From NCBI GenBank assembly GCA_026018925.1, contig JAKSZU010000003.1:188763639-188827638 (forward strand): a stretch of DNA of 64,000 nucleotides, in the 5' to 3' direction. The position numbers were made by a program, and so were the translations under genes. Below the pieces are notes generated by a model, which saw only the letters and a list, made by a program, of their open reading frames with translations, ran no database searches and was not told where the DNA came from. Source of the DNA: Tupaia tana. Its lineage: Eukaryota > Chordata > Mammalia > Scandentia > Tupaiidae. Position 1 is the first letter of the stretch. The number at the start of each line of letters is the position of its first letter. Positions 2,002 through 62,693 of the stretch are shown piece after piece.

Positions 2002-2254
2002 TTTTTTTTTTAAAGAGAGATTTTTGCTATAGGGGACGTGTGCTTGCTGGAAAGAGAGAGAGACAGAAAGTGAGAAGTCATCCTCCCAGGAGGGATGGCC
2101 ACACCACAATCCCTTCTCCTCCATTCTCCTCTCGGGATCTTGATCATGAGCACATGAGCCCAGCATGAGTTTTAAGTCTCCAAGTCTGGGACTCGAAATG
2201 TGGTCAACTACATGGGAGTCCAGTGACGTAACCATTATGCCATCTGCTGGTCCC
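2002..2254 (-). mobile_element. SINE-A copy (antisense)
   Basis: T-run at the left is the reversed A-tail, followed by the reversed 3' module, a reversed pyrimidine tract, body and tRNA-like head ending in 'ctgctggtccc'. Imperfect duplication 'agcaaat'/'agtaaat' flanks it. Moderately diverged. Confidence 0.9.
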
Positions 2255-2740: not shown

Positions 2741-2934
2741 GAAGTCAACAGATGGTGTGAAGGTTAGGTCACAGGACTCCTATATGCCCGACTGTGGTTC
2801 AAGTCCTGGACCTGGCGGCTTGAAAAATCACACTGGGCGTGTGTACATGTGTACCAAAAATCCCAGGAGGAGAATGGAGGAGAAGGGAGTGTAACATGGC
2901 CAGCCCCCCCTTGGGGGTGATTTCTCACTTTACC

Positions 2935-2996
<62 letters not shown>

Positions 2997-3078
2997 TCTC
3001 TCCCTCTCTCTCCCTCTCTCTCTGATGACTGCATATGCTCTATGGCAAAATAAAAAAAAATTAAAAATTTTAAAAAAG
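2741..3078 (+). mobile_element. SINE-A copy nested in another SINE-A
   Basis: A full head ('cagatggtgtgaaggttagg'), B-box-like 'ggttcaagtcc', body, expanded (CT)n tract and the end 'gctctatggcaaaataaaaaa' are present. Its extra length comes from the expanded CT run. It interrupts the copy whose halves flank it. Confidence 0.8.
2931..3023 (+). repeat. (CT)n microsatellite inside a SINE
   Basis: An almost pure CT/CCCT run of about 90 bp. It grew from the pyrimidine tract that is a normal module of the SINE, so it is a SINE-seeded microsatellite, probably polymorphic in length. Confidence 0.95.
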
Positions 3079-3349
3079 TTGAGTGAATGTGTGTGCATAT
3101 CCATAATCACAACAAAAGGGAGAAATGGGGAAAGGGTTGCAGTGTGACCATGCCCCATGGGGGGTGCTTTCTCACATTCTCTCTCTCATTCTCTCTTTGT
3201 CTCTCTCCAGCAAGAGCACATGTCCTCTGGCTTAAAATAAAAGCAAAATAAAAGAAAACTAATGTATCCTGATATGAAGGATCTAAGAAGTTTCTAGGAA
3301 AAAGTTACATCTAACATCAAGGAAGGCTTCCTGAAAGAAGACATATCTG

Positions 3350-3857
3350 AGATATTACGACTGTTGTTCCATGACTACTACTACTCCAAATAAGTTATTC
3401 ACAAAATATATGACATCAGTGCAATAAACCTAAATAACATGGACAATAACCAATAAAATTGTATCCGATTCCTTAGTAATCTGGTTATGTGACAGTATTC
3501 TGAAACATAAAGTTGCCTTGTCAGTTGATGCCAGTATGTGGAGAACCTCAACATATCCAGATATTTTAACATTATCAGACTGAGTAGATGTACTTACAAG
3601 GTCATTCAGGTTCAACTATAGAGAAGCTAAAGTCCCTAAGAGTCTGTCCCAGAGTCCCCATGTGGAGCCCTTTGCCTGCCCTGAGATATACAGAGCCCCT
3701 GTATTCTCTCCTCCCCTCCAGTAACAATCTGTCCCAGATAAATCTCTCCCAAATTTCATTTATACTGATACTCAGAAGACTGATAGGATGGCATGGTCCT
3801 CTACAAAAGCTGTACTTACCCTAGTCATAACAAGGTTTAAGTTTCAGGAAAGACTTT
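3350..3857. other. Unique sequence, no gene seen
   Basis: AT-rich to moderate composition, with no repeat I recognise beyond a possible reversed L2 scrap just upstream (about 3280-3345, 'aggaaggcttcctgaaaga'). No supported coding region. Confidence 0.4.
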
Positions 3858-4085
3858 TTTGTTGTTTGTTTAATCACCAGAGGGCACGTGTGCTTCTCAG
3901 AAAAAGACAAACAGAGAGAAAAAGAGGGAAAGACCGCAGCCCCTTCTCCATTTCTCCATCCTGTCAGGATTTGGTGTATGAACACACACACATATCCACA
4001 TATTTTTCAAGCTGCCAGGGATTTGTACCACAGTCGGCCATGTGGGATCTGGTTCCTTAACTACTATATATTACAGACCAGCCCC
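3858..4085 (-). mobile_element. Old SINE-A copy (antisense)
   Basis: Reads 'caccagagggcacgtgtgct', a purine-rich reversed pyrimidine tract, 'ccatcctgtcaggattt', and a decayed head ending near 'ttccttaactactata'. It belongs to the older subfamily that carries 'ggatctggctccctta' at the head. Confidence 0.7.
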
Positions 4086-4850: not shown

Positions 4851-4870
4851 GAAAACACCTAAGGTTCTTG

Positions 4871-5135
4871 GGACCAGCAGTTAGCGTAATGGCTATGTCG
4901 CTGGACTCCCACATAGTCGACCGAGGTTCGCATCCCAGATCCGGTGACTTAAAACTCACGCCAGGCGCATGCGCGTGCCCAAGATCCCGAGAGGAGAATG
5001 GAGGAGAAGGGATTGCGGCATGATCATCCCCCCTGGGGGGTGATTTCTCGCTTTCTGTCTCTATGTCTCTCTCCGTCTGTCTGGCGAGCGCACGCGCCCT
5101 ATAGCGAAAACCTTTCCAAAAAAAAAAAAAAAAAA
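4871..5135 (+). mobile_element. Young full-length SINE-A (reference copy)
   Basis: This is the clearest copy of the dominant SINE. The head 4871-4940 is tRNA-like, with an A box at 4882-4892 (tagcgtaatgg) and a B box at 4925-4935 (ggttcgcatcc), the internal RNA polymerase III promoter. The body follows, with 'gagaggagaatggaggagaa' and a conserved hairpin of a C-run facing a G-run (about 5018-5042). Next come a pyrimidine tract, the 3' module 'gagcgcacgcgccctatagc' and a poly-A tail. A perfect 18-bp TSD (4851-4868 and 5136-5153) proves insertion by L1-type target-primed reverse transcription. CpG density is high, so it is young. The RNA itself codes for nothing. Confidence 0.95.
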
Positions 5136-5336
5136 GAAAACACCTAAGGTTCTACTATTTCCACATCCCTGTTTTCTTCACCACAAAATTTTCATTAACA
5201 GCATCCTTTTAGGTAAATCTGAGAAATATTTTCAAATTACATGAATATAAAAATTTACATTCACACTTTAAATGGTTTACGAGTAATAAATAACTCTTTG
5301 TCTCCCATAATCTGTTGAGCAAACACACAAACTTGA

Positions 5337-5598
5337 GGGTTTTGTTTTGTTTTGTTTTTAGAGAGAGATTTCTGCTATAGGGCACATATGCTCGCCAGAG
5401 AAACAGAAAGCAAGAAATCATCCCTCCCCCCAAGGGGGATGGCCACGTCGCAATCCCTTCTCCTCCATTCTCCTCTTGGGACGTTAGGCACACATGCACA
5501 CACACCCAGTGTGAATTTAAGCCACTGTGTCTGGGACCCGAACCACAGTCGACTACGTGGGAGTCCAGCAACACAACCATTTTGCCATCTGCTGGCCC
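5337..5598 (-). mobile_element. SINE-A copy (antisense)
   Basis: Runs from a (TTTTG)n tail through 'gatttctgctatagggcaca' to a reversed head ending 'gccatctgctggcccc'. Full length, moderately diverged; no clear long TSD. Confidence 0.9.
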
Positions 5599-6197: not shown

Positions 6198-6366
6198 CAC
6201 TCCTGGGGCTGGATGGGTCATGGAGGTTGAGGGCGCTAGACTCTCACATGGTCTACTACAGTTCAAGTCCCGAACCTGGTGGTTTGCTTTCTTACTTTCC
6301 CTCTCTCTCTCTCTGGTCAAATTAAAATAAAAATAAAATAAAGTTAAATAAAATAATTCTTTAAAA
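6198..6366 (+). mobile_element. SINE-S (short variant)
   Basis: The tRNA-like head ('gggctggatgggtcatggag', B-box-like 'gttcaagtccc') passes directly from 'cctggtggtt' into 'tgctttcttactttccc', skipping the usual body. The tail 'ggtcaaattaaaataaa' with AATAAA repeats and a final 'attcttt' differs from SINE-A. AATAAA plus TCTTT-type tails are known from SINEs classed as T+; assignment to that class is my inference. Confidence 0.85.
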
Positions 6367-7681: not shown

Positions 7682-7948
7682 GGCCAGCTTGTGGTCTACT
7701 GGTTAAGAGAGCCATATGCCACATGGCCAGCTATGATTCAAATCCTAGTCTCAGCAGCTTGAAAAACACACCAGGCACATGTGCATGTATGTTCAAAATC
7801 CAAACAGGATGGAGAAATAGAAGAGAAGGGATTGTGGTATGACTGTGTCCCATTGGAGGGTGCTTTTCTCTCTCTTCCTCTCTCTCTCTCTTTCTCTCTG
7901 TGTCTCTCCTGAGTGAGCACACACACCCTCTGGCAATTGAAAAAGAAG
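7682..7948 (+). mobile_element. Old SINE-A copy
   Basis: Starts 'tggccagcttgtggtctact' and ends 'ccctctggcaattgaaaaag'. Represents the older subfamily whose 3' module reads 'ccctctggcaatt' in place of 'ccctatagc' and whose B box is decayed. Confidence 0.85.
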
Positions 7949-9331: not shown

Positions 9332-9590
9332 CTAGCAGCAGATGGCATAATGGTTAACATCACTGAACTCCCATGTAGTCCATCACAGTTCAAGTCCCAG
9401 ACCTGGAGGATTTGGGGCATGCATGCCAGATACATGTGCATGCATGCCCAAAATCCCAAGAGGAGAATGGAGAAGGGATTGCTACGTGGCCATCCCCCCT
9501 TGGAGGGTTATTTCTCACTTTCTGTCTTTGTCTCTACCTTTCTCTCTGGTGAGCACATGTGTCCTATAGCAATCTCTCAAAAAAAAAAAA
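9332..9590 (+). mobile_element. SINE-A copy, first of a tandem pair
   Basis: Starts 'tagcagcagatggcataatg' and ends with an A12 tail at 9579-9590. CpG sites have mostly decayed, so it is older than the copy that follows. A likely TSD for the whole pair is 9320-9333 and about 9915-9929 ('agaaaaacatatct' against a close match). Confidence 0.9.
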
Positions 9591-9852
9591 GGGGGGGGGG
9601 GGCGCCAGCAGTTAGCGTAGTGGCTATGTCGCTGGACTCCCACGTAGTCGACTGTGGTTTGAGTCCCGGACCCGGTGGCTTAAAACTCACGCCAGGCGCG
9701 TGTGCATGCGTGCCCAAGATCCTGAGAGGAGAATGGAGGAGAAGGGATTGTGGTGTGGCCATCCCCCCTGGGGGGTGATTTCTCGCTTTCTATCTCTCTG
9801 TCTCTCTGTCTGTCTGGCGAGCGCACGCACCCTATAGCAAAAGCCTCTAAAA

Positions 9853-9885
<33 letters not shown>

Positions 9886-11167: not shown

Positions 11168-11919
11168 CAATGGTTCCCAAGTATGGTCAAAGGACCTGAG
11201 GGGTCCTTGAGACCTTTCTTGCTAGGTCAGAATTATTCTCATAATAGTACTTATGTATTTTTTAGTCTCTTTCACTCTGATACTCTCATGAGTACACAGA
11301 AGCTACATGACATGTGATAAGGACAACAGACTGAAAGTAGAAGCAGATAAGAGAATCCAGCTGGCATCTATTAAACCAGACATCACAGAGATTTGCAAAA
11401 TTATAAAACAATGCCATGCCTCAAAGACTTGTTTTGGAAAATGTAGTTATATTTTATAAAAATATGCTCTTCGTGTTAACATGTAGTATGTTTACTTGTT
11501 AAGTAATCTAGGATTTATCAGTTTTAATTTTAATGTGGTAAATATGATAAATATAGCCCTCATAAACAAAATATTTCTGGAGGGGCCAGCAGATGGTATA
11601 GTGGTTACATTGCTAGACTGCCACATAGTCAACCATAGTTAGAGTCCCAGACCCATTCATGCTGGGTGCAGTGTGTGTGTGCCCAAAATCTCTAGAGAAG
11701 AATGAAGGAGAAGGGACTGCAGTATGGCCACTCCCCTGGGGGGGGGGGGGTGATTTCTCACTTTCTGTCTCTCTGGAGAGCCCATACACCCTGTAGCAAA
11801 AATCTCTCTAAAAAACAAACAAACAAACAAACAAACAGAAAACACTCTGGAGTCTTCAATAATTTGAAATATTTAAGTTTAAAATTTGATCTTGAGACCC
11901 CAAGTTTAGAGAACTGCTA
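11168..11919 (+). mobile_element. hAT-Charlie type DNA transposon, split by a SINE
   Basis: Opening 'caatggttcccaagtatggt' and closing 'agaccccaagtttagagaac' form imperfect terminal inverted repeats. Internal text such as 'gctacatgacatgtgataag', 'taaaccagacatcacagag' and 'gttttggaaaatgtagttat' fits an old eutherian hAT element without transposase. A SINE-A lies inside at 11583-11838. Confidence 0.75.
11583..11838 (+). mobile_element. SINE-A copy inside a hAT fossil
   Basis: 'ggggccagcagatggtatag' to an (AAAC)n tail (11811-11838). Short TSD around 'ctggag' on both sides. A G13 run sits at 11738-11750 where the body hairpin lies. Confidence 0.92.
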
Positions 11920-15180: not shown

Positions 15181-15186
15181 GCAGAT

Positions 15187-15290
15187 GTGTGTATATATAT
15201 ATATATATATAGATGTGTATATCACACACACACATACACACATACATATATATATATATGTGTGTGTGTGTGTATACACATACACATATC
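15187..15290. repeat. (TA)n/(CA)n/(TG)n compound microsatellite
   Basis: Blocks of TA, CA and TG alternate so that the CA part and the TG part are reverse complements around a TA core. This purine-pyrimidine alternation can form hairpins or Z-DNA. Confidence 0.95.
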
Positions 15291-16943: not shown

Positions 16944-17190
16944 GGGACCAGCAGATGGCATAATGATTACGTCACCTGGCTGACCATGGTTCTAGTCCCT
17001 GACTTTGGCTTAAAAATCACACAGGGCATGCGTGCATGTGTGCATACCCAAGAGCCCTGGAGGAGAAGTGATTGTGGTGTGGTCATCCCCCTGGTTGGGT
17101 GATTTCTCACTTTCCCTCTCATTATGTCTGGCTCTCTGATGAGTGCATGCATTCTAAGGTAAAAACCTCTTTAAAAAAATAAATAAATAA
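16944..17190 (+). mobile_element. SINE-A copy with 12-bp TSD
   Basis: 'gggaccagcagatggcataa' to an (AAAT)n tail. The TSD agaagccccatg occurs at 16929-16940 and 17192-17203. Part of the pyrimidine tract is short. Confidence 0.95.
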
Positions 17191-19867: not shown

Positions 19868-20285
19868 ACTGGGTAAAACTAAAAGAACATAACTCTAGGT
19901 CAGTCCCCCTCTTTATTTTTTCAGAGCAGGAGATGAGGGGGAAGAGTATTTTATGGTTTCAAAATATGGAAAAGTTTGCAAATGAATGCTTCATACAATA
20001 AAAGTCTTTTTTGTATAAATAAAGATGGTTAAGATGGTCATAGAGATCTGTCTGTTAAAACCACAGACCTACTTCTGAAATAGGTCCCTATAAATGATAT
20101 GTCTGCAAATCCACATCTCTTTTCAGAGAGATTCACTTTTTCAGAAGTGTTTCATCTTCATTTCACATTCACCATCAGAGGACACTAATACTATGCCTTT
20201 AGCCTTTTTGCCTTCCCCTTTTAGGCCTTCCAAGCTCTTTATTATGTCAGTTTTAATATATCTGCTTGTAAACATTCATGAGTTC
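19868..20285. other. Unique sequence, no gene seen
   Basis: No repeat or coding region recognised apart from the SINE tail that starts next. Confidence 0.4.
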
Positions 20286-20590
20286 TTTTTTTTTTTTCTT
20301 TTAGTTTTTTGCTCTGGGGCATGTGGTGCACTCGCCAAAGACAGACAGGCAGAGAAAGAAAGAATGAAAGAGGAAAAGTGAGAATCACCCCCCCAAGGGG
20401 AAGCTATACCACAATCTCACCTCCTCCATTATTTTCTCAGAATTTTGGACAGGCGCGCACACACACACACACACACACATACACACACACGCCAGCGTGA
20501 TTCTCAAGTTGACGTGTTCAGGACTTGAACAGTGAAGTCAGCCATACGGCATCAAGCCACCTTAACCTCTATACCACCTGCTGGCTCCTA
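20286..20590 (-). mobile_element. SINE-A copy (antisense)
   Basis: T-run, 'ttgctctggggcatgtggtg', reversed tract, then a head ending 'accacctgctggctcc'. An internal (CA)n has expanded (20457-20490). Flanked by 'tgagttc'/'cgagttc'. Confidence 0.9.
20457..20490. repeat. (CA)n microsatellite in a SINE body
   Basis: About 15 CA units grown from the alternating purine-pyrimidine text in the SINE body. Confidence 0.95.
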
Positions 20591-20618: not shown

Positions 20619-20852
20619 AGGGCCAGATGGTGATACAAAGTGAAATGTGATGCTTTGTAAGGCAGATGCACATGGGAAAGTTACCAGTTCATGTCCAGAG
20701 ACCTCCCTGAATATTCTGGGCATGCATGTGCCCATTGTCTGGGCTGGCTGGAACGGGGGTGGATCACCGCATCAAGATCCTGTCAGGGGTACTGTATCTC
20801 TTTTGCGCTTTCTATCTCTTTCACTCATGAAATTAAAAAATAAACTTAAAAG
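20619..20852 (+). mobile_element. SINE-B copy
   Basis: Starts 'agggccagatggtgatacaa', contains 'acctccctgaatattctggg' and 'gggggtggatcaccgcatca', then 'ctctttcactcatgaaatta' and an AATAAA-bearing tail. These phrases recur at 54217 and are absent from SINE-A. Confidence 0.8.
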
Positions 20853-20862: not shown

Positions 20863-21135
20863 AGGCCAGCCAGGTAGCATGTTGGCTAAGGTGACTGGAT
20901 CCTATATGGCTAGTTGCGGTGCTAGTCCCAGACCTGCAGTTTGAGAAACATGTGGGATGCATGTGCGTGCATGCCCAAAATCCTGAGAGAATAGAAAAGA
21001 AGGAATTTTGGAATGGTCATCCCTCTTGAAGGTGCTTTCTCATTTCTCTCTCTGTCTCTCTGCCTCTCAGTCTCTCTCTGGCAAGCTCATGTGCTCTATA
21101 GCAAAAAGAAAAGAGAGAAAGAAATTAAAAAGAAA
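20863..21135 (+). mobile_element. SINE-A copy
   Basis: 'aggccagccaggtagcatgt' to 'ctctatagcaaaaagaaaag'. It follows the preceding SINE-B after about ten bases, so it probably inserted near or in that copy's tail. Confidence 0.9.
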
Positions 21136-22420: not shown

Positions 22421-22675
22421 GGGGCTGGTGCCAGAAGGTGGTGCAGTGGTTAAGGTGATGGACTCACACATGGCCAACTGCGGATCAAGTCCCAGACATG
22501 GTAGCTTGAAAAACATGCTGGTGCATGTGTGTGCATGCCCAAAATCTTGAAAGGAAAATGGAGAAGGGGTTGCAGCATGACCATCCTCCCTGGGAGATGA
22601 TTTCTCACTTTCCCTCTCACTGTCTCTCTGTCTCTCTCAGGGAGCACATGTGCCCTATGGGAAAGAAAAAAAAAA
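22421..22675 (+). mobile_element. SINE-A copy
   Basis: 'ggggctggtgccagaaggtg' to 'gccctatgggaaagaaaaaa'. Flanks share 'atagtggg' (about 22416-22424 and 22679-22686). Confidence 0.9.
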
Positions 22676-24219: not shown

Positions 24220-24488
24220 GGGAACCAACAGTTAGCGTAATGGCTATGTCGCTGGACTCCCACGTAGTCGACCATGGTTCGCGTCCCGGACCCGGTTACT
24301 TAAAATTCACGCCGGGCGCATGTGCGTGCGTGCCCAAGATCCCGAAAGGAGAATGGAGGAGAAGGGATTGCGGCGTGACCATCCCCCCTGGGGGGTGATT
24401 TCTCGCTTTCTGTCTCTATGTCTCTCTCTGTCTGGCAAGCGCACGCGCCCTATAGCGAAAAACCTCTCCAAAAAAAAAAAAAAAAAAA
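24220..24488 (+). mobile_element. Young SINE-A with perfect 17-bp TSD
   Basis: A box 'tagcgtaatgg', B box 'ggttcgcgtcc', intact hairpin and 3' module, A-tail. TSD aaaatcccacctgcctt at 24203-24219 and 24485-24501. Rich in CpG. Confidence 0.96.
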
Positions 24489-24775: not shown

Positions 24776-25021
24776 TTTTTTTTTTTTTTTTTTTTTTTGC
24801 CATAGGGCACATGCACTTGAGAGACAGGGAAAGTGAGAAATCACCCACCAGAAGAGATGGCTATGCTACAATCCCTTCTCCTCCATTTTCCTCCTGGAAT
24901 CTTGGGCACACATGCATGTACATGCACCCATTATGATTTTCAAGCTGTCAGGTCCAGGACTCAAACTGTGATCAGCCATGTGGGAATCCAACACCTTAAC
25001 CACCACACCACCTGCTGGCCC
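24776..25021 (-). mobile_element. SINE-A copy (antisense)
   Basis: Long T-run (reversed tail), 'gccatagggcacatgcactt', head ending 'caccacctgctggccc'. The body is intact; CpGs mostly decayed, so middle-aged. Confidence 0.92.
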
Positions 25022-26224: not shown

Positions 26225-26770
26225 CTTTTCCATTATACAAGATGACAGGTGAAAAAGCTACGAAACAGGATACTTAGGAGAAGAAACCTGAAGCCATGAA
26301 GGCTGATGCCAGTGGCAAAGTTAAAAAGGTTGACCCCGAGGTTAAAAAGCCCAAGAAGGAGAAGCCCTGAGCTAGCATCACTCCTAGGACCATTCTGATC
26401 AACCTCACTGGACGCCACAGAGGCAAGAGAGTGGTTTCCCTGAAGCAGCTGAGCAGTGGTTTGCTACTTGTAACTGGACCGCTGGTTCTGAGTTCCACTG
26501 CATAGAACATACAAGAAAGTTGTCATTGCCACCTCCACGAAAATTGATACTAGCAAAGTAAAAATTGCAAAGCATCTTACCAATACTTACTTCAAGAAAA
26601 AGAAACTGCGGAAGCCCAGACACTAGGAAAGTGAGATTTTTTTTTTTAATTTGGTTTTATTTTTCATATTTCCCGATTACGAATAGGATTGCACTTTTCC
26701 TACACACGTTGGTCATTTGGATCTCCTCTTTGATTAAGTGCCTGTTTAAGTATCTTGCCTTTAATTCAGT

Positions 26771-27035
26771 TTTTTTTTTTTTTAGAGGTTTTTGCTATAG
26801 GGCACGTGTGCTCGCCAGACAGACAGAGAGAGAGACAGAGAGATAGAAAGCAAGAAATCACCCCCCACGGGGGATGGCCACACCGCAATCCCTTCTCCTC
26901 CGTTCTCCTCTCAGGATCTTGGGCACGCACGCACACGCACCCAGCGTGAGTTTTAAGCCACCGGGTCCGGGACATGAACCGCGGTCTACTACGTGGAAGT
27001 CCAGCGACATAGCCATTACGCTAACTGCTGGTCCC
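26771..27035 (-). mobile_element. Young SINE-A copy (antisense), in RPL6 pseudogene
   Basis: T-run, 'gaggtttttgctatagggca', reversed tract and hairpin, head ending 'gctaactgctggtccca'. Near-consensus and CpG-rich. Confidence 0.93.
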
Positions 27036-27050
27036 AAGATTATTTATTTT

Positions 27051-27306
27051 ATTTTTTTTTTTAGAGCTTTTTGCTACAGGGCGTGTACACTCGCCAGACA
27101 GACAGAGAGAGAGAGATAGAAAGTGAGAAATCAACCCCTGGGGGGATGGCCACGCCACAATCCCTTCTCCTCCATTCTCCTCTCGGGAGCTTGGGCACGT
27201 GCGCACATGCACCTGGCGTGAGTTTAAGCCACCGGGTCCAGGACTCGAACTGCGTTTGAATACATGGGAGTCCAGCGACATAGCCATTATGCTAACTGCT
27301 GGTCCC
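27051..27306 (-). mobile_element. Young SINE-A copy (antisense), in RPL6 pseudogene
   Basis: T-run, 'gagctttttgctacagggcg', reversed body, head ending 'gctaactgctggtccc'. It abuts the right copy of the 13-bp TSD of the composite block. Confidence 0.93.
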
Positions 27307-28274: not shown

Positions 28275-28305
<31 letters not shown>

Positions 28306-28561
28306 TTTTGAGAGGTGTTTGCCATAGGACGCGTGCACTCACCAAACAGACAGAGAGAGACAGAGAGACAGAAAGCGAGAAATCACCCCCCCAGAGGGGA
28401 TGGCCACACTGCAATCCCTTCTCCCCCATTCTCCTCTCAGGATCTTGGGCACACACGCACACGCGCCCGGTGTGAGTTTTAAGCCACCAGGTCCGGGATG
28501 CGAACCACGGTCGACTACATGGGAGTTCAGCGACATAGCCATTACGCTAACTGCTGGTCCC
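28272..28561 (-). mobile_element. Young SINE-A (antisense) with perfect 13-bp TSD
   Basis: TSD cagtcttattctt at 28259-28271 and 28562-28574. The reversed tail begins with a (TA)n run (28273-28298) before the T-run, so the poly-A tail gained a TA microsatellite at its far end. Body CpG-rich. Confidence 0.96.
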
Positions 28562-30282: not shown

Positions 30283-30518
30283 TTCTCTCTTTTTTGGCCA
30301 GAGAATGCATGTGCTTGCCAGAAAGAGACAGAGAGGGGAGAGGAGAAGGCACCCTCCCACACACACTGAAAATGGTTCTCCTTCATCTTTCCCTCCTTCA
30401 GGGATTTTGGGCATACATGCATTTGCATGCAAATGCAACTGGTATGTTTCTCAGGTTGCTGGGTCCAGTACTTGAAACGATCTGGCGGTCTTAACCACCA
30501 GGTCACAGAGACAACTTC
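30283..30518 (-). mobile_element. Old SINE-A copy (antisense)
   Basis: 'ttttggccagagaatgcatg' to 'aaccaccaggtcacagag', with an 8-bp flank repeat agaatctt (30275-30282 and 30519-30526). Strongly diverged head. Confidence 0.75.
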
Positions 30519-30567: not shown

Positions 30568-30795
30568 AGCTGGGTGGTGATGTAGCGGTAATACAATGCT
30601 CCACAAGAGGGATCCACAAGGTTCTGGGTTCACATCTAGTGAACTCCAAGAACACACTAAGCATACATGTGTCCATGATCCATGCTAACTAAAGCTGCAG
30701 GTGAACCATGGCATGACGACCTTTTGAAGGTATCTGTCTCTCTTTCTCTCACTATCTCTCTTGTCTTTCTTCTTTATGGAAGAAATAAAGAAAGA
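30568..30795 (+). mobile_element. SINE-B copy
   Basis: 'gctgggtggtgatgtagcgg', 'caaggttctgggttcacatc', 'gaactccaagaacacactaa', 'gcatacatgtgtccatgatc', then 'ctctctttctctcactatct' and 'gaagaaataaag'. Order of phrases matches other SINE-B copies. Confidence 0.75.
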
Positions 30796-30804: not shown

Positions 30805-31072
30805 TTATGTATTTATTTATTTTAAGATTTTTGCTATAGGGCACATGTGCTTGCCCAAGAGAGACAGAGAGAGACAGTGAGAGGTAAAGTGAGAAATCAT
30901 CCCCCGAGAGGGACAGTCATGCTACAATTCCTTCTCCATTCTCTTCCTGGGATTTTGGGCATGCACACACATACGCCCAACATGATTTTCAAGGTACCAG
31001 GACCGGAATTCAAACTGCAAACAGCCATGAAGGAGTTCAGTGTATTAACCACTATGCCATCTATTTGCCCCC
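30805..31072 (-). mobile_element. SINE-A copy (antisense)
   Basis: (TTTA)n-type reversed tail, 'gatttttgctatagggcaca', head ending 'tatgccatctatttgcccc'. It sits directly behind the SINE-B tail, suggesting insertion into A-rich sequence. Confidence 0.9.
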
Positions 31073-31086
31073 AAAAAGAAACTTTT

Positions 31087-31344
31087 TTCTTTTCTTTTTC
31101 TTTGGAGAGGTTTTTGCTATAGAGCGCATGTACTCACCAGAGAGACAGAGACAGAAAGCGAGAAATCACCCCCCAGGGACATGGCCACGCCGCAATCCCT
31201 TCTCCTCCATTCTCCTCAGGATCTTGGGCACGCACATACACACGCCCGGCATGAATTTAAGCCACCGGGTCTGGGACTCAAACCTCGGTCAACTACATGG
31301 GAGTCCAGCGACATAGCCATTACACCACCTGCTGGTCCCCCAAC
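31087..31344 (-). mobile_element. SINE-A copy (antisense) with perfect 12-bp TSD
   Basis: TSD aaagaaactttt at 31075-31086 and 31345-31356. 'gaggtttttgctatagagcg' to 'accacctgctggtccccc'. Confidence 0.95.
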
Positions 31345-32556: not shown

Positions 32557-32836
32557 AGGGACAAGCAGTTGGTGTAATTGGCTATGTCGTTGGACTCCCA
32601 TGTAGTCGACAGCGGTCTGAGTCCCAGACCCAGTCACTTAAACTCACGCCGGGTGTGTGTGCGTGCATGCCCAGGATCCCAAGGGAAGAATGGAGGAGAA
32701 GGGATTGAGGCATAGCCATTCTCCCTGGGAGGTGATTTCTGTCACTTTCTGTCTCTCTGTCTTTCTGGAGAGCGCACACGCTCTATAACAAAAACCTCTA
32801 AAAACAAACAAACAAACAACAACAAAAAAAAAAAAA
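32557..32836 (+). mobile_element. SINE-A copy
   Basis: 'agggacaagcagttggtgta' to an (AAAC)n/A tail. CpG partly preserved. The flanks share an A-run plus 'acatgtgg'/'acacgtg', a plausible decayed TSD. Confidence 0.93.
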
Positions 32837-33660: not shown

Positions 33661-33671
33661 TAAATATATAT

Positions 33672-33676
<5 letters not shown>

Positions 33677-33702
<26 letters not shown>

Positions 33703-33715
33703 TATGTATGTATTT
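33677..33715. repeat. (TA)n/(CA)n microsatellite
   Basis: Alternating TA and CA units continuing from 33655. Confidence 0.93.
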
Positions 33716-38152: not shown

Positions 38153-38409
38153 TGCTGTTTTTGTTGTCATTTTAATTGCCAGAGGGCTTGTGCATACTTT
38201 TTGGAGGGAGATAGAGAGACAGAGGGAGAAAGCATCTCCTGATGGGGCGTGGTCATGTCCCAATCCCTTTTTCCCATTTCTCCATCCTGTCAGGATTTAG
38301 TGCAAGCATGCATGCACACCTGGCACATCTTTCAAACACTGGAGTGGAGACACAAACTGTGGTCAGCCTTGTGGGGTCCAGCTCCCTTAATCACTAGATT
38401 ATAGGCCAG
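38153..38409 (-). mobile_element. Old SINE-A copy (antisense)
   Basis: 'ttaattgccagagggcttgt', 'gatggggcgtggtcatgtcc', 'ccatcctgtcaggatttagt', head ending 'ttaatcactagattataggc'. Same old subfamily as 62440-62693 and 46085-46317. Confidence 0.85.
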
Positions 38410-39015: not shown

Positions 39016-39124
39016 CTCTGGCACCCAATAAGCATGGCACAGGGTTGAGGTCACATACTCAGGCTTCCTCACCACATTTGTACATGTCTGATTTAGAAAT
39101 TCAGATATAGGGGACAAAAGGTGG

Positions 39125-39612
39125 TATTTCTACAAAACACAATGCTTACAAGGCTGACCCACACGGGAAGATTCCAAATATGTCTCTGGAATCCTTCCTA
39201 GATCCACCCAGCACAAATATGCCTATGATCTGAGAATGGCTGAGGCTGGGGATCACACCATCAGACCCAACTTGAGGGTGGGAGTGGGGGGCAGCAGGTG
39301 GCATAGTGGTTAAGGCACTGGATTCCCACATGGCTGACCGTGAAGGCTTGAAACTCAAGGCAGGCATGTGTGCATGCATGCCCAAAAATCCCAGAAGGAG
39401 AATGCAGGAGAAGGGATTGTGGCATGGCCATTCCCCAGGGAGGTGATTTCTTAGTTTCTAGTTCTCTGTCTCTCTCTGTGTCTCCAGCAACCACATGTAC
39501 CCTATAGCAAAAATCTCTCTAAATACCAAATTGAGGGTACTAGCTCTAAGTATTTCTTTCTCTCTTCTTCTTCTCTCTCTCTCTCTGAAGAAATAAGTAA
39601 AAAATAAACTTA
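39125..39612 (+). mobile_element. SINE-B copy split by a SINE-A
   Basis: Left part 39125-39280 ('acaaggctgacccacacggg', 'ggatcacaccatcagaccca') and right part 39528-39612 ('agctctaagtatttctttct', 'gaagaaataagtaaaaaata') form one SINE-B. The insertion duplicated 'ccaacttgaggg'/'ccaaattgaggg' (39268-39279 and 39526-39537). Confidence 0.85.
39283..39525 (+). mobile_element. SINE-A copy nested in SINE-B
   Basis: 'ggggggcagcaggtggcata' to 'accctatagcaaaaatctct'. The B-box region is deleted ('gctgaccgtgaaggcttgaa'). Confidence 0.9.
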
Positions 39613-40631: not shown

Positions 40632-40899
40632 TTTTTGTTTTTGTTTTTGAGAGGTTTTTGCTATAGGGAGCGTGCACTCGCCAGACAGACAGAGAGCGAC
40701 AGAGAGACAGAAAGCGAGAAATCAGCCCCCGGGGGGATGGCCACGCCACAATCCCTTCTCCTCCACTCTCCTCTCGGGATCTTGGCCACGCACGCACATG
40801 TGCCCAGCCTGAGTTTTAAGCCACTGGGTCCTGGACTCGAACCACGGTCGACTACATGGGAGTACAGCAACATAGCCATTACGCTAACTGCTGATCCCT
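40632..40899 (-). mobile_element. Young SINE-A (antisense) inside L2
   Basis: (TTTTTG)n tail, 'gaggtttttgctatagggag', reversed hairpin, head ending 'gctaactgctgatccc'. CpG-rich. Confidence 0.94.
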
Positions 40900-41528: not shown

Positions 41529-42248
41529 TGGTATGGGTTAAATAGCGTCCCCCAAAAAGTTGTATTGAAGTCCTAACTTGCAGTACCTGGGAGCGTGACT
41601 TGGTTTGGAAATACGGCCTTTGCAGATATAATCAAGTTAAGATGAGGTTTGTAGGGTGACCCTAATCCAATATGATTGACTGTCCTTAAAAAAAAGAGAA
41701 GACCAGCTGGTGGCATAGTGGTTAAAGTGGCTAAATCCCGCATGGCAAACTATGTGGTTTGCGTCCCAGACACAGCAGCTTGAAAAACATGCCAGGCACA
41801 TGTGCATGCATGTCTGAAATCTTGAGAGGAGAATGGAGAAGAGATTGTGACATGGCCATTCCTGCAGAGGGTGCTTTCTCACTTTCCCTATCACTCTCTC
41901 TGTCTCTCTCTCTCCAGCAAGCATGTGTGCTCTAAAGTAAACTTTAAAAGAAAAAGGAAAAGACAAGAAAAGGAAGGAAAGACATATAGAAAGACAGAGC
42001 CAGAGAGTGGAGCTGTACTAACACAAGCCAACGAGTGCTTGGGGCAACCGGAAGCTGGGATTGGCAAGGAAGGATTTGCCCACAAGTTTCAGAGGGAGCA
42101 TGGCCCTGCCCACACCTTTGTTTCTAACTTGAGGCTTTCAGAACTGTGAGAATACATTGCGGCTAATTGCGGTTAAAAGCCCTCCCCGACCCCTCCCCCC
42201 CTCCCCAGTTTATGATACTTTGTACAGCAGCCCTAGGAAACTAAAGTA
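41529..42248 (+). mobile_element. Solitary MaLR/MLT1-type LTR split by a SINE
   Basis: Starts 'tggtatgggttaaatagcgt', continues with 'ttggaaatacggcctttgca', 'taatccaatatgattgactg', and ends 'gcagccctaggaaactaaag'. A 5-bp duplication ggtgg (41524-41528 and 42249-42253) fits LTR-retrotransposon integration. Without the inner SINE it is about 475 bp, a lone LTR left after recombination, with no internal coding region. Confidence 0.8.
41700..41950 (+). mobile_element. SINE-A copy inside the MaLR LTR
   Basis: 'agaccagctggtggcatagt' to 'gtgctctaaagtaaacttta'. It separates 'gtccttaaaaaaaagagaa' from the purine-rich middle of the LTR. Confidence 0.9.
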
Positions 42249-42410: not shown

Positions 42411-42638
42411 GGGGACCAGCAGATGGCATAATGATTATATCACTGGATTCCCATTTAGTAGACCATGTTTCAAGTCCCAGTGTGTGTGTGTGTGCCCAAA
42501 AGCCTGAGAGGAGAATGGAGGAGAAGGAATTGTGACGTGTCCATCCTCCTGAGCGGTGATTTCTCACTTTCTGTCTGTCTCTTTCTGTCTCTCTGGGAGA
42601 GCCCATGTGAGCTACAGCAAAAATCTCTTGGAAAAAAA
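42411..42638 (+). mobile_element. SINE-A with internal deletion and 9-bp TSD
   Basis: TSD taatccttt at 42402-42410 and 42639-42647. The segment just after the B box is missing ('caagtcccagtgtgtgtgtg'), so it is shorter than usual. Confidence 0.92.
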
Positions 42639-42658
42639 TAATCCTTTAGATTCAAATG

Positions 42659-44229: not shown

Positions 44230-44456
44230 TAAAACTGTATTTATTTCTTCCACTAGTGAGAGAGATGGCACCCCTAACAGTCAGTCACAGTCACAGCCTG
44301 GGTGCTGTGATCTACTCCCAACTTCAGCCAGCCCCAGATCATAGGCACAGACACGCCCAGTATACTCAGGGAGGTCTTTGCACACAAACCTGGAACCTCC
44401 CCATGTGGGTCAGAGTCACGGAGCATGCATTTTATCACTGAGCCATTCTCTAATCC
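44230..44456 (-). mobile_element. SINE-B copy (antisense)
   Basis: 'tatttatttcttccactagt', 'gctgtgatctactcccaact', 'gatcataggcacagacacgc', 'aacctccccatgtgggtcag', 'cattttatcactgagcc' are reversed SINE-B phrases. Confidence 0.75.

Positions 44457-45507: not shown

Positions 45508-45510
<3 letters not shown>
44607..45510. other. Unique AT-rich sequence
   Basis: No recognised repeat or exon. Confidence 0.4.
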
Positions 45511-45731: not shown

Positions 45732-45960
45732 AAAAAAAAAAAAGTCTATTAATTTATTTCTTCCATCAGAGAGAAAGAACAGAGACAGAGAGACAAGCAC
45801 CCCCAGTAGGATCTCCATGCCACAATCTACCTTCAGACTCTGCCAGCCCAGGTCTTGGGCACATGCACAGGTGTCCAGGATATACAGAGAGGGATGAAAA
45901 CTGAGGACCTTTCCATGTGAGTCCAGCTGCACCACCTCTGTTCCACCATCTGGTCCCACC
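45732..45960 (-). mobile_element. SINE-B copy (antisense)
   Basis: 'attaatttatttcttccatc', 'cccccagtaggatctccatg', 'ctctgccagcccaggtcttg', 'ggtgtccaggatatacagag', 'ggacctttccatgtgagtcc', 'ttccaccatctggtccc' reversed SINE-B. Confidence 0.75.
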
Positions 45961-46080: not shown

Positions 46081-46317
46081 GAGTTGAGGAGGCACGTGGA
46101 CGTGCCAGGTACAGAGAGAGAGAAAGGGAGAAAGTGTCCCCAATGGGACATGGTCACACCACAATCCCTTCTCCTTTACGTCTACATTCTATTGTGATCC
46201 TGGGAGCACACACACATGTGCCTGCTGTGTTTTCCAAGCTGTTGGGACTGGGACGCAAGCCATGTAGCAGTCCATGTAGGATCCAGCTCCCTTAACCAGT
46301 AGGACACAGAGCCAGAC
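46081..46317 (-). mobile_element. Old SINE-A (antisense) with perfect 15-bp TSD but no visible tail
   Basis: TSD ttacattatcaattt at 46066-46080 and 46318-46332. The head ends 'cagtaggacacagagccaga'. No T-run is left at the tail side. Low CpG suggests age, yet the TSD is intact. Confidence 0.88.
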
Positions 46318-47043: not shown

Positions 47044-47272
47044 CTAGGGCCAGATGGTGGTGCAATAGTGGCACAGCTTGATTCATATGAGAAGATGCTG
47101 GATTCACTTCCCAAGGTCATCCTGTACACACACCATAGCACGTACTTCCATGTCCATGCCAGGCTGGATAGGAGAGGAGTAGATTATGGCATGGGAACTC
47201 TGTTGGAGTTGCTCCTCTCTCTCTCTCTCTCTCTCTTATGAATTAAATAAATAAATATATGTAAAAAAGAAA
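47044..47272 (+). mobile_element. SINE-B copy
   Basis: 'tagggccagatggtggtgca', 'tccatgccaggctggatagg', 'agattatggcatgggaactc', (CT)n, then 'tatgaattaaataaataa'. Confidence 0.75.
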
Positions 47273-48900: not shown

Positions 48901-49109
48901 TTGCCTTTTGACTTCATTTAAAGTGATCCATGAAGCTATCAGGAACTCAGGCTTCATGCAACCCAGACTTTTTAGTTTTTTGAAATTTAACATATCAGTC
49001 TTTCTCTTTATAATTTCCTATACCTAGGAAAAACACTCTACCACAAGATTTTTTTTTTCAACATTTCTTTCTTCTACGAGTTTTTTAAAGAATTATTTAA
49101 TTTTATTCA

Positions 49110-49259
49110 TCATTATTAATTTTTAAAATTTGACCAGAGAGAGACAGAGAGAAAGAGAGAGATAGGAAAGTGGGAAAGCAAGCCACCAGGTCCAGGACTT
49201 GAACCATGATCAGCTGAGTGGAGTCCAGCACCTTAAGCACCATGCCACCTGCTGGCCCC
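49110..49259 (-). mobile_element. SINE-S (antisense) inside L1, 9-bp TSD
   Basis: TSD ttcttctac at 49069-49077 and 49260-49268. Reversed tail 'aattttattcatcattatta', 'aatttgaccagagag', purine tract, 'gaaagcaagccaccaggtcc', head ending 'gccacctgctggcccc'. The SINE-A body is absent. Confidence 0.88.
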
Positions 49260-50121: not shown

Positions 50122-50371
50122 GGACCAGCAGTTGGCACAATGGCTATGTCACTGGATTTCCATGTAGTTGGCTGCGGTTCGAGTCCTGGACCTGGTGGCT
50201 CAAACCCACACCGAGCACATGTGCGTGCATGCTTAAGATCCCGATAGGAGAATGAAATTGCGGTGTGGCCATCCCCCTGGGGGGGTGATTTCTCGCTTTC
50301 TGTCTCTCTACCTCTCTCTGGCGAGTGCAAGCGCCCTATAGCAAAAACCTCTCTGAGAAAAAAAAAAAAGG
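50122..50371 (+). mobile_element. SINE-A with perfect 17-bp TSD
   Basis: TSD aagaaactatgatccca at 50105-50121 and 50375-50391. B box 'ggttcgagtcc' perfect. The body lacks a few bases after 'gaatg' compared with the reference copy. Confidence 0.96.
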
Positions 50372-50444: not shown

Positions 50445-50693
50445 ATTTTTTTTTTAGCTTGCTATAGGGCATGAGTGCTCAGCAGAGAGACAGAGAAAGA
50501 GAGATAACATGAGAAAGCACTCCCCAGGGACTTGGTCACCTTGCAATCCCTTCTCTTCCATTTCTCTCTCCTTTTGGGTTTTAGTCACTCATACACACAT
50601 ACCCAGTGTGTTTTTCAAACTGCCAGGTCTGGAACTCAAACACAGCTGTCAGCCATGTGGGATCCAGCCACCTTAACTACCATGGCCCCAGCT
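50445..50693 (-). mobile_element. Old SINE-A copy (antisense)
   Basis: T-run, 'agcttgctatagggcatgag', 'gtttttcaaactgccaggtc', 'gccatgtgggatccagccac', end 'ctaccatggccccagc'. Confidence 0.88.
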
Positions 50694-50796
50694 TGTTCAT
50701 TACATTTTTAAACAGCAACAATAACCAAACCTTGCTAAGCTGTAGGTTGTCTCTTAGGACTACTGGATGGTCAGAATTCTAAGGGTGGGTAGGTAT

Positions 50797-50862
50797 AGGA
50801 CTTGAACTGCCATGGGCCATGTGGGAATCCAGGGCCTTAACCACAACATCACCTGCTCGTCC
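50797..50862 (-). mobile_element. SINE-A head fragment (antisense)
   Basis: 'ggacttgaactgccatgggc' to 'catcacctgctcgtcct' is only the tRNA-like head. The rest of the copy is missing. Confidence 0.7.
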
Positions 50863-50879: not shown

Positions 50880-51138
50880 TTTTCTTTTTTTTTTTTTGGA
50901 GAGGTTTTTGCTATAGGGAGCGTGCGCTCGCCAGACAGATGGAGAGAGACAGAGAGTCAGAAAGCAAGAAATCACCCCCCGGGGGGGGGATGGCCATGCT
51001 GCAATCCCTTCTCCTCCATTTTCCTCTCGGGATCTTGGGCACGCACGCACACACGCCCAGCATGAGTTTTAAGACACCAGTCTGCGGTCGACTACGTGGG
51101 AGTCCAGCGACATAGCCATTATGCTAACTGGTGGTCCC
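50880..51138 (-). mobile_element. Young SINE-A (antisense) with perfect 13-bp TSD
   Basis: TSD ctgggcactttct at 50867-50879 and 51139-51151. Reversed hairpin has a long G-run (50978-50988). Part of the B-box side is deleted ('agacaccagtctgcggtcga'). Confidence 0.96.
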
Positions 51139-54216: not shown

Positions 54217-54442
54217 GAGCCAGACTATGGCACAGCAGTAATGCAACACTCTGCAAGGCTGACCCATGTAGGTTCATTCCAGAAACTTCCCTGAGCATAC
54301 CAGACACATGTATGCCTATGATGTGGGGCTGCTTAAAGCTGGGGGTGGATCACAGTCTGAAGACCTTATTAGGAGTTCAGGCTCTCTTTCTCGCTCATTC
54401 ATGAAAGAAAGAGAGAGAAAACTCAAAAGATAAAAATAAAGT
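54217..54442 (+). mobile_element. SINE-B copy inserted at the HAL1 tail
   Basis: 'gagccagactatggcacagc', 'caaggctgacccatgtaggt', 'cttaaagctgggggtggatc', 'tctcgctcattcatgaaaga', AATAAA-bearing tail. Begins immediately after the HAL1 A-rich tail. Confidence 0.85.
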
Positions 54443-54747: not shown

Positions 54748-54908
54748 CGGGTCCAGCAGGAGGCATGGTGGTCAACGTGTTGGACTCCCACATGGCAGAC
54801 TGCAGTTCAAATTCTGGACCTGGCAGCTTGCTTTCTAATTTTCCCTCTTTGGTGAGCACTCATGCCCCATAGGAAATTAAGAAAATAATAATAATAATGA
54901 TAAATAAA
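54748..54908 (+). mobile_element. Internally deleted SINE-A, SINE-S-like junction
   Basis: The head reads 'cgggtccagcaggaggcatg', then 'ctggacctggcagcttgctt' joins straight to 'tctaattttccctc', as in SINE-S. Unlike SINE-S it keeps the SINE-A 3' module 'gtgagcactcatgccccata', and its tail has 'aataaaattaaataac'. Confidence 0.8.
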
Positions 54909-54922
54909 ATTAAATAACTTTT

Positions 54923-55186
54923 TTTTGAGAGAGATTTTTGCTATAGGGCATGTGCACTCGCCAGACAGAGAGAGACATAGAGACAGAAAGCGAGAAATCA
55001 CCCCCCAGGGGGGATGGTCACGCTGCAATCCCTTCTCCTCCATTCTCCTCTCGGGATCTTGGGCACGCATGCACACGTGCCCGGCGTGAGTTTTAAGCCA
55101 CCGGGTCCAGGATGCGAACCGCGGTCAACTACGTGGGAGTCCAGCGACATAGCCATTACACTAACTGCTGGTTCCCATTAAATAAC
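54923..55186 (-). mobile_element. Young SINE-A (antisense) with perfect 14-bp TSD
   Basis: TSD attaaataactttt at 54909-54922 and 55187-55200. Near-consensus body, head ending 'actaactgctggttccc'. Inserted into the tail of the preceding SINE. Confidence 0.96.
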
Positions 55187-55694: not shown

Positions 55695-55945
55695 CTCTTT
55701 TTCTTGGTTTTAATTTTGTTTATGTACATATATTTCTTACAAAGGTGAGACAGAGAAAGAGAGAGAGAGAGAACCTCTAAGAGAGTCTTGACACCACAAT
55801 TCATCCCGACCAGCCCTGGTATCATGGGCACGCATGTGTCCAGTGTACTCTGGAAGATCTCCAGAGATGAATTGGAGCCTTCCTGTGTGGGTCTGCCTCG
55901 CAGAGCATTGTGTTTTACTACTGCACCACCATCCAGCCTCCTAGA
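55695..55945 (-). mobile_element. SINE-B copy (antisense)
   Basis: 'gtttatgtacatatatttct', purine tract, 'ccagccctggtatcatgggc', 'gtgtccagtgtactctggaa', 'ccttcctgtgtgggtctgcc', 'actgcaccaccatccagcct' are reversed SINE-B phrases. Confidence 0.78.
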
Positions 55946-60422: not shown

Positions 60423-60675
60423 TTTTTTTTTTTTTTTTTTTTTCTTTTTTTTTTAGGTTTTTGCCATAGGGCATATGTGCTCACCGGAGAAAGATAGACA
60501 CAGTGTGAGAGAATGGCCACACAACATCCCTTCTCCTCTATTCTCCCGCCAGGATTTTGGGCATGTGCACACACACACGCCTGACATGATTTTCAAGTTA
60601 CCAGGTCCAGGACTCAACCTGGGTTCAGCCATGTGGCAGTCCGGCACCTTAACCACCATGCCACCTGCTGGCCCT
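60423..60675 (-). mobile_element. SINE-A copy (antisense)
   Basis: Long T-run, 'aggtttttgccatagggcat', head ending 'tgccacctgctggccc'. Flanks 'cacttaat'/'cacttagt' suggest a decayed TSD. Confidence 0.92.
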
Positions 60676-60790
60676 CACTTAGTACTTGTTTTGCTACTCC
60701 AAATCATACGTATTTATTCTGTGTTCTTACTACTAGAAAAAAGTTTGGAAATGACTAGTCAACTTAACTAGTAAATAAATTCCCTTTCTT

Positions 60791-61039
60791 TAGATTTTTG
60801 CCATAGGATGTGGCCACTTGGAAGAGACAAACAGAAGAGAGGGAAAATGTACACACTCCCGCTCATACACAGGAGTGATGGCCATACTACAATGTCTTTT
60901 CCTCCATTCTCCTCTTGGAATTTTTGGCCATGCAAGAACACGCATTTGGCATGTTATTCAAGCCACTGGGTCCAGATTCAAACTGCTCAGTTGGTCATGT
61001 AGGACCCAGCACCTAATCATCACACCACCTGCTGGTCCA
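60791..61039 (-). mobile_element. SINE-A copy (antisense) with 14-bp TSD
   Basis: TSD aaattccctttctt (60777-60790)/aaattctctttctt (61041-61054), one mismatch. 'tagatttttgccataggatg' to 'caccacctgctggtcc'. Confidence 0.92.
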
Positions 61040-61252
61040 CAAATTCTCTTTCTTCCTCCCTTTCTTTCTTTCTTTCTTTAAAGAGGTTTTTGTCTTAGGC
61101 CACATGCACCCACTGGAGAGAGAGAAAGACAGAGACAGTGATAGAGAAAGTGAGAAATCACTCCCTGGCAGGATGCCTACACCGCAATCCTTTCTCTTCC
61201 ATTCTCTTCACAGGACCTTGAACACACATACATGTGTGCCTTGAATGATTTT

Positions 61253-61737
61253 TCTGGTTTTCTTTTTTTTTTTTTTTTCTAATTTTTTTTATCTATTTAT
61301 TTAATTTTATTTATTCATTCATTTATTTTAAATTGACAAGAGAGAGGTACAGAGAGAGAGAGAGGGAAAGTGAGAAAGCAAGCCACCAGGTCCAGGACTC
61401 AAACCATCCTTGGCCATATGGGAGTGTCCAGCACCTTAACCACCATGCCACCTGCTGGTCTCTTTCTGGTTTTCTTTTTTTTTTTTTTTTCGGAGAGGTT
61501 TTTTTCGCTATAGGGTCAGTGCGCTCCCCAGAAAGACAGAGACAGAGAGCGAGAAATCACCCCCCACTAGGAGAGATGGCCATGCCACAATCCCTTCTCC
61601 TCCATTCTCCTCTTGGAATCTTGGGCACACACGCACACGTGCCTGGCATGAGTCTAAGCCACAGGGTCCTGGACTCAAACCGCGGTCGACTACATGGGAG
61701 TCCAGCGACATAGCCATTACGCCAACTACTGGTCCCC
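61253..61737 (-). mobile_element. Young SINE-A (antisense), middle layer of the nest
   Basis: Its body is 61491-61735 ('gaggtttttttcgctatagg' to 'gccaactactggtcccc'). Its T-rich reversed tail begins 'tctggttttctttttt' at 61253 and is itself split by a SINE-S. TSD gaatgatttt at 61242-61251 and 61740-61749. CpG-rich. Confidence 0.85.
61282..61462 (-). mobile_element. SINE-S (antisense), innermost layer of the nest
   Basis: Reversed tail 'atttaattttatttattcat', 'ttttaaattgacaagagag', purine tract, 'gaaagcaagccaccaggtcc', head ending 'gccacctgctggtctc'. The text 'tttctggttttctttttttt' occurs on both sides (61251-61270 and about 61463-61482), a long TSD within the tail of the SINE-A around it. 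Confidence 0.88.
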
Positions 61738-61826
61738 CAGAATGATTTTCAAGCCACCTGTTCCGGGACTCAAACTGTGGTCAGCTAAGTGGGAGTCCAG
61801 TGATGTAACTGCTATGCCATCTGCCC

Positions 61827-62439
61827 CCTGCAAATAGATTCTTAATTTGGCAACAGCAGTTATAAAACATTTGCAATCTGCAAAATGCAACAACATGGAG
61901 AGATTGTTTTAAACTGATCCCTCACTAATGTTACCAAAATTATACATTACAGCCAGTAACAAGTGCCAAAAAAAGGATCTTAACTTTGTTTTTTAAATCT
62001 ATTAATTAATAAAGAAAACTTTAAGAGTATTTTGCATTATATAATTAATTCAAAAGAACTGTATTGTAGATTCTGAATACATTAGAACATAGGTAGAATA
62101 TTAAAGGCCTTAGAAAGAAAATACAAAGTTTTAATATGATATCCAAACGGCTCCCAAGAAAACCAAAGAGAAACAAGTGAGAAAGCCAGGCAAGTGGGTA
62201 GAAATCCCCTTATCAGAACAACAGGCTTTCTCCATGGATCTGTGAATGAACTACTGCCTTATTTGATTGGATTCTAAAAGATTCTTCAGCTCTAAGTACA
62301 ATAAAGTTGATAAGTACACTATAGGGACAGAAAAAAGAGCAGGAAAAGCTGTTAATGTGCTCAGACCAGTTCCCACTAACCTTTTCAGACCTTTCATCAT
62401 ATAACTCACCTTTCAATTGTCAATGCTGCCCATCTTTTT
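61827..62439. other. Unique AT-rich sequence
   Basis: No repeat or exon recognised. Confidence 0.4.
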
Positions 62440-62693
62440 TTCTTTTATTGCCAGAAGTTGCATGCACTTGCCAGAAAAAGATAAAGAGAGATTGAGAAAG
62501 AGAGAAAGAGAGACCTCCCAATGGGACGTGGTCACGTCACAATCCCTTCTCCTCTATCTCTTCACCCTGTCAACATTTTGGGCACACACATGCACATGCA
62601 CCAGGTGTATTTTCAAGCTGCTAGGACAGGATTCCAAGTAGACAGCAAGCCACATGGGATCTGGCTTCCACTAGGCCACAAGGCCAGCTCCCA
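62440..62693 (-). mobile_element. Old SINE-A copy (antisense)
   Basis: 'ttttattgccagaagttgca', 'caatgggacgtggtcacgtc', 'ttcaccctgtcaacattttg', head ending 'ggccacaaggccagctcc'. Confidence 0.88.

Follow-up and report, generated by a model that had tools for sequence, protein, structure and literature searches.

The tRNA-headed repeat copied throughout a 64-kb window is very probably a Tu SINE of tree shrews

The repeat at positions 4851 to 5153 of the window (the whole stretch of DNA analyzed here, 64,000 nucleotides) is a SINE insertion with a tRNA-like head, and we are highly confident that its family is that of the Tu SINEs (Tu-SINE2/3; TUS, Tu-III), the published tRNA-headed SINEs of tree shrews (Scandentia). 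This is a family already known and not a new kind of element. The first-pass annotation of the window could not name it; primer sites and genome share now allow it to be called a Tu SINE, with the sub-name (TUS, Tu-III, or another) not fixed. Tree shrews serve as stand-ins for primates in research, and the repeat marks this group of animals. The comparison of published PCR primers with a whole genome also shows how a repeat can be named where a repeat library is lacking.

The index copy at 4851 to 5153 has all of the parts that had been read from it earlier (head, boxes, body, pyrimidine tract, 3' module, and A tail), each where the first-pass annotation had placed it (Table 1). Its boxes were scored against the A-box consensus TRGYNNARNNG and the B-box consensus; both are visible, with the B box one base off, and in the family consensus the B box reads GGTTCGAGTCC. 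The boxes and the tRNA-like head bear out the earlier description of the family as tRNA-headed. At non-CpG sites, the index copy diverges from the young consensus by 5.7%.

An nhmmer profile seeded from 13 window copies gave 48 matches in the window at an E value of ≤1e-3, covering 15.8% of its bases (16.8% when the short-form profile described below was added), and the same scan of the reversed, uncomplemented window plus 200 kb gave 0 matches at that cutoff. Joining of fragments left 46 elements (20 on the plus strand and 26 on the minus strand), or 47 after one wrong join at 61064 to 61460 was split, and 4 of the 47 are of a short, body-less form; the true number may be lower than this count, given three adjoining pieces in 2746 to 3254. 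Near-full-length copies number 28, and BLAST too finds the family throughout the window. The earlier claim of more than 30 copies is thus sustained. At 26770 to 27306, 9336 to 9868, 30808 to 31339, and 61475 to 61824, adjacent copies share one orientation and lie back to back, an arrangement expected if newer insertions had hit the ends of older ones.

Table 1. Parts of the index copy, other copies of the SINE family, and an older repeat, in window positions
Feature	Positions	Strand	Basis or remark
5' target-site duplication (TSD) GAAAACACCTAAGGTTCT	4851..4868	+	read directly; 18 bp, perfect
SINE copy, near full length, model 1-269	4870..5134	+	nhmmer, 300 bits
A box TAGCGTAATGG	4882..4892	+	fits TRGYNNARNNG
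B box GGTTCGCATCC	4925..4935	+	one base off consensus
Body, begins GCCAGGCGC (7SL-like start)	4960..5044	+	sequence comparison
Pyrimidine (TC) tract	5045..5083	+	read directly
3' module CCCTATAGC	5097..5105	+	read directly
A18 tail	5118..5135	+	read directly
3' target-site duplication GAAAACACCTAAGGTTCT	5136..5153	+	read directly
Copy, near full	2002..2254	-	profile
Copy, partial	2746..2959	+	profile
Fragment	2990..3061	+	profile
Copy, 5' truncated	3078..3254	+	profile
Copy, 5' truncated	3857..4047	-	profile
Copy, near full	5346..5598	-	profile
Short body-less form	6219..6340	+	short-form profile
Copy	7692..7936	+	profile
Copy, near full	9336..9590	+	profile
Copy, near full, non-CpG divergence 2.9%	9605..9868	+	profile
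Copy, near full	11582..11825	+	profile
Copy, near full, TSD 12	16944..17189	+	profile
Copy, near full, old	20285..20587	-	profile, divergence
Copy, near full	20870..21114	+	profile
Copy, near full, old	22431..22673	+	profile, divergence
Copy, near full, TSD 17	24221..24487	+	profile
Copy, near full	24778..25020	-	profile
Copy, near full, back to back with 27043..27306	26770..27035	-	profile
Copy, near full	27043..27306	-	profile
Copy, near full, TSD 13	28295..28561	-	profile
Fragment	30292..30479	-	profile
Copy, near full, old	30808..31071	-	profile, divergence
Copy, near full, TSD 12	31086..31339	-	profile
Copy, near full	32558..32818	+	profile
Copy, partial	38172..38384	-	profile
Copy, near full	39289..39526	+	profile
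Copy, near full	40632..40898	-	profile
Copy, near full, old	41701..41959	+	profile, divergence
Copy, near full, exact repeat of 9 at ends	42412..42639	+	profile
Copy, partial	45768..45957	-	profile
Copy, partial	46091..46298	-	profile
Fragment, weak	47140..47235	+	profile
Short body-less form	49109..49258	-	short-form profile
Copy, near full, TSD 17	50122..50369	+	profile
Copy, partial	50446..50673	-	profile
Head fragment	50791..50862	-	profile
Copy, near full, TSD 13	50880..51138	-	profile
Short body-less form	54750..54893	+	short-form profile
Copy, near full, TSD 15	54915..55175	-	profile
Copy, near full	60436..60673	-	profile
Copy, near full	60788..61038	-	profile
Copy, 5' truncated	61064..61253	-	profile
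Short body-less form	61310..61460	-	short-form profile
Copy, near full	61475..61736	-	profile
Head fragment, abuts 61475..61736 copy	61736..61824	-	profile
Copy, partial	62435..62636	-	profile
Older decayed repeat	20622..20809	+	
Older decayed repeat	30569..30753	+	
Older decayed repeat	39119..39279	+	
Older decayed repeat	44255..44452	-	
Older decayed repeat	54219..54396	+	
Older decayed repeat	55752..55937	-	

In the accessible part of PMC4408798, which also gives the names TUS and Tu-III, Tu-SINE2/3 make up 21% of the Tupaia belangeri genome. We measured the corresponding share in a genome of 2.948 Gb (1198 contigs) by using 20 pieces of 10 kb taken at round-number positions on 10 large contigs, which together with the window make 264 kb. 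The profile of the bodied form covered 19.0% of the non-N bases of the 20 pieces (bootstrap over pieces, 14.5 to 23.4%; 0 to 37% in individual pieces), and the bodied and short-form profiles together covered 20.1% of the sampled genome. This share equals the published one within error. Scaled to the genome, it comes to about 1.45 million near-full copies (1.1 to 1.8 million) and 2.8 million matches (2.1 to 3.5 million). The 126 near-full copies showed a bimodal distribution of divergence from the young consensus at non-CpG sites, peaking at 2.5 to 7.5% and at 17.5 to 20%. We divided these 126 copies into young (≤12%; 74 copies), middle (12 to 20%; 42 copies), and old (10 copies) tiers; for the counts of tails and of TSDs per tier, the cuts were instead ≤6% (young; n = 49), 6 to 12% (middle; n = 23), and >12% (old; n = 73). 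The young copies lie about 2 to 6% off the consensus at non-CpG sites, compared with an average identity to consensus of 98% for TUS copies in PMC4408798, a difference that speaks against the naming.

Published oligonucleotides provided the other link to tree shrews. An Alu-LTR type PCR on tree shrew cells employed two reverse primers, labeled AluI and AluII (PMC8312864, in the text available). Unaltered, AluI has 10 exact sites in the 264 kb, all 10 inside matches to the SINE family, and AluII has 14, of which 13 lie inside such matches; the reversed primers have 0. We take neither primer to be human Alu. When the last base of AluI (22 bases) was widened from T to Y, there were 399,473 exact sites genome-wide and 0 for the reversed pattern. 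In the index copy, the AluI motif (PMC8312864) lies at 4995 to 5016, inside the body, with C at the last base, where the primer has T. The host could be approached in the same way. The check-F primer for tree shrew APOBEC3 has a single site in the genome, with 2 of 29 bases mismatched (reversed control, 0), and the APOBEC3 sgRNA site (1 of 21 mismatched) and check-R primer (5 of 24) follow it in the right order within 154 bp. A tree shrew NTCP primer pair has also been published (PMC5575003, seen in excerpt). Both NTCP primers match with 1 mismatch in 20 and delimit a 123-bp product. The product lies in a frame that reads as NTCP. Both sets of oligonucleotides mark the host as a tree shrew. 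To judge from the mismatches, it is probably of another species than the animal for which the primers were made, although those in APOBEC3 could also reflect a paralogue.

The family thus resembles the published Tu SINEs in host order, tRNA head, A tail, genome share (19 to 20% here, 21% published), and primer stretches, the likening being by share and primers; it differs in that the species is probably not that of the primer donor and in that the 7SL part is weakly visible here. The earlier suggestion that the repeat is lineage specific and useful for identification proved right at the level of the order, from the tree shrew primers and the genome share within a tree shrew genome. A core 21-mer of the SINE had 0 matches in viral and general genome contig sets, a result uninformative about other mammals.

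Ves and Rhin-1 of bats, Eri of hedgehogs, and Tal of moles have the same layout of tRNA head, body, pyrimidine tract, and A-rich tail, and this common layout would speak for a TC-tract SINE from some other order, in a host that is not a tree shrew. We consider this explanation extremely improbable, given a genome share as published for the tree shrew, primers used on tree shrew cells that match the family, and the location of tree shrew APOBEC3 and NTCP oligonucleotides in the same genome. Furthermore, Ves, Eri-1, and Tal, which have TC tracts, are T+ families (PMC8466645, in the part consulted), whereas AATAAA occurs here in 7 of 49 young copies; the families are set apart on their descriptions. 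The same holds for the T+ tRNA SINEs Can, Ves, Dip, Eri-1, Tal, and C together: they have a tRNA head and TC tract in common with the present family, the short form of which usually has AATAAA, but by description they differ from most young bodied copies, which end in a plain A tail (T- type). SINEs of bats (Rhin-1), hedgehogs, moles, and colugos were tried as first candidates and set aside; the family's genome share pointed away from bats.

The SINE sequence that can be compared with tree shrew publications amounts to the 46 nt of the two primers, whose design repeat is unnamed in the available text of PMC8312864, and the sub-names are not fixed. Both points leave some room for a tree shrew SINE other than the published Tu-SINE2/3 that shares the primer stretches by chance, an explanation that we rate as slightly less remote than a foreign SINE and still very unlikely. 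After masking of the family, no repeat of like density was seen in the 264 kb at the BLAST settings used, and therefore nothing else in these sequences competes as the source of the published 21%. The largest group remaining (self-BLAST of 264 kb, E value of 1e-8, at least 60 bases) had 15 pieces, so that the earlier statement that the family dominates the window is fair for copy number. This group may consist of unmasked ends of the short form because its hub piece bears that form's TC tract and AATAAA tail.

Neither ARAGORN nor the Rfam tRNA model called any of the window's SINE heads as a tRNA. Against 29 human tRNA genes, the two old heads scored about equally with Gly, Arg-CCT, and, for one of them, Ser-AGA, and the young head scored best with Arg-CCT. 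Because several tRNAs are nearly equal, we name no parent tRNA. Across all Rfam families, there was no match in the window at the gathering score, and the best subthreshold hits (mir-297 and kin) fell on TG/TA simple repeats. These repeats, at 15180 to 15295, 33630 to 33710, and 45490 to 45580, score below the cutoff as microRNA families, probably by chance.

Tu type SINEs have been described as chimeras of 7SL-derived and tRNA-derived SINEs (PMC7245038, in the portion seen, citing Nishihara 2002), and we assume Tu type SINEs and Tu-SINE2/3 to be one group. The body of the young consensus begins GCCGGGCGC and is co-linear with 7SL from nucleotide 1 over 59 to 63 nt. When the body was aligned with human 7SL, its score was reached by 6, 54, and 243 of 1000 shuffles for the young, middle, and old tiers, respectively, and under two other scoring schemes by 0 to 5, 129 to 353, and 389 to 673. 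With a 7SL copy from the same genome, the numbers were 16 to 62, 17 to 104, and 212 to 357 of 1000, and no similarity emerged when the body was compared with a decayed 7SL copy. From these alignments, the body may derive from 7SL, as would fit the publication. Alu and B1 likewise carry L1-type insertion marks, but the head here is tRNA-like and the 7SL similarity, which is not secure, extends over only some 60 nt of the body; an Alu stretch gave no significant match to the SINE (score reached by 85 of 500 shuffles). The young consensus gives a better fold than shuffled versions of it (z, -3.8; in a second run, -3.25, with -2.4 for the body alone). For the old consensus, z was -4.0 for the body and -1.7 for the whole, and for the middle tier, it was -1.15 and -1.3; 40 sampled genomic copies had a mean z of -1.4. 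We claim no selection for a conserved body hairpin, as the tier differences are explicable by CpG decay in an alternating sequence.

Mammalian SINEs with a tRNA head are transcribed by RNA polymerase III from their internal boxes, and L1 inserts them by nicking the target and using the A tail for priming. Exact TSDs of at least 12 bp flank 8 of the 28 near-full window copies (those starting at 24221, 28295, 54915, 4870, 50880, 31086, 50122, and 16944), which agrees with the at least eight perfect TSDs of 12 to 18 bp reported before. In the window and the 20 pieces together, exact TSDs of at least 10 bp were found for 40 of 126 near-full copies and of at least 12 bp for 33, with no exact 10-bp TSD in the other 86; permuting 5' and 3' flanks between copies gave means of 0.44 (maximum, 2) and 0.16, respectively. 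Retention fell from 28 of 49 young copies to 6 of 23 middle and 7 of 73 old ones and was 3 of 24 for the short form (permuted means, 0.04 to 0.3). Of 37 copies, 23 had T at -2, 22 had T at -1, and 33 had A at +1; the count of A is inflated, and A at -1 is nearly excluded likewise, because the leading As of the duplication cannot be separated from the end of the A tail, so that the TT/AAAA signal is partly built in. The family thus carries the L1-type insertion marks of an A tail, variable TSDs, and a TT/AAAA-like site (the last partly biased by the A tail), and from these marks its copies were probably mobilized by L1. Directed by the element's own A and B boxes, RNA polymerase III would make an RNA that runs across the body and the pyrimidine tract and ends in the A tail; L1 proteins, the presumed driver, would nick the target at a TT/AAAA-like site and, with the A tail as the priming site, reverse transcribe this RNA, and insertion would leave the TSD, which is 10 to 19 bp where one was found. 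Broken reading frames at about 18805 to 19822 (minus strand) and 52683 to 53665 (plus strand) look to us like L1 ORF2 and ORF1. Such L1-like frames and the A-tailed TSDs together pointed to a placental mammal as the host.

The short form was recognized from head-only matches, 24 of 34 of which end at model position 80 to 82. Of these 24, 23 continue into the TC tract, with 28 or more pyrimidines among the following 40 bases; the exception runs into another SINE copy. After the tract, many short copies read like GGTCAAATTAAAATAAATAA, and some retain a decayed CCCTATAGC module. A profile of 20 short seeds found 29 junction-spanning copies in the 264 kb, four of them in the window and none overlapping a body match. 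In the end region (30 bases before to 40 after the match end), AATAAA was present in 25 of 29 short copies and in 7 of 49 young, 9 of 23 middle, and 21 of 73 old bodied copies (random 70-mers, 5.9%); by AATAAA in the tail, the mark of T+ SINEs, bodied copies do not class as T+ (7 of 49 among the young). Within 75 bases after the junction, it was found in only 11 of 24 because the tail sits further out in many short copies. Runs of ten As occurred in 4 of 29 short copies and in 37 of 49 young, 8 of 23 middle, and 15 of 73 old bodied ones. TTTT or TCTTT, a sign of a polymerase III terminator, did not separate the forms (short, 14 of 29; young, 12 of 49; middle, 5 of 23; old, 33 of 73). From their own consensus, the heads of the short form differ by about 9% (22 copies, counted free of CpG, TG, and CA).

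Tentatively, and with more doubt than confidence, we suggest that the family had two designs, an older short one with a tail rich in AATAAA, probably polyadenylated, and a longer bodied one with a plain A tail, and that only the latter gave the recent bulk of insertions. The short design would be a tRNA head joined to the TC tract, and the longer one would have a body of roughly 100 nt, possibly 7SL derived and hairpin forming. If this is true, the mode of retroposition changed from T+ to T-, coinciding with gain of the body. Can SINEs are reported to switch back and forth between the T+ and T- modes (PMC9599045, in the part available), which provides a precedent for such a change in the tree shrew family. 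The short form would also arise if the body had been deleted between GGTGGCTT and GGTGATTT, which are similar stretches, and either form may have come first. A literature search on polyadenylation of tree shrew SINE tails returned no tree shrew SINE study among the partial texts reached, a weak negative with most subscription papers outside the search. The two tail designs are the part that we did not find described in the literature examined, and they offer a modest, testable example of how the copying mode of a SINE may change.

Other repeats and inserted sequences were seen along the way. The 264 kb contain an older, much decayed repeat that also has a TC tract and whose head is tRNA-like (16 matches, 11 kept; window positions in Table 1). 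Tried as a relative, it showed no secure similarity to the SINE: its score was reached by 18, 172, and 36 of 500 shuffles for the three tiers and, for the body alone, by 182, 473, and 449 of 500. Cytochrome b gave 21 matches, one of them on the 16,812-bp contig C1198, taken as mitochondrial, where a cytochrome b reading frame could be read; pieces on nuclear contigs (e.g., C220:64715621 and C419:3715012) are probably nuclear copies of mitochondrial DNA.
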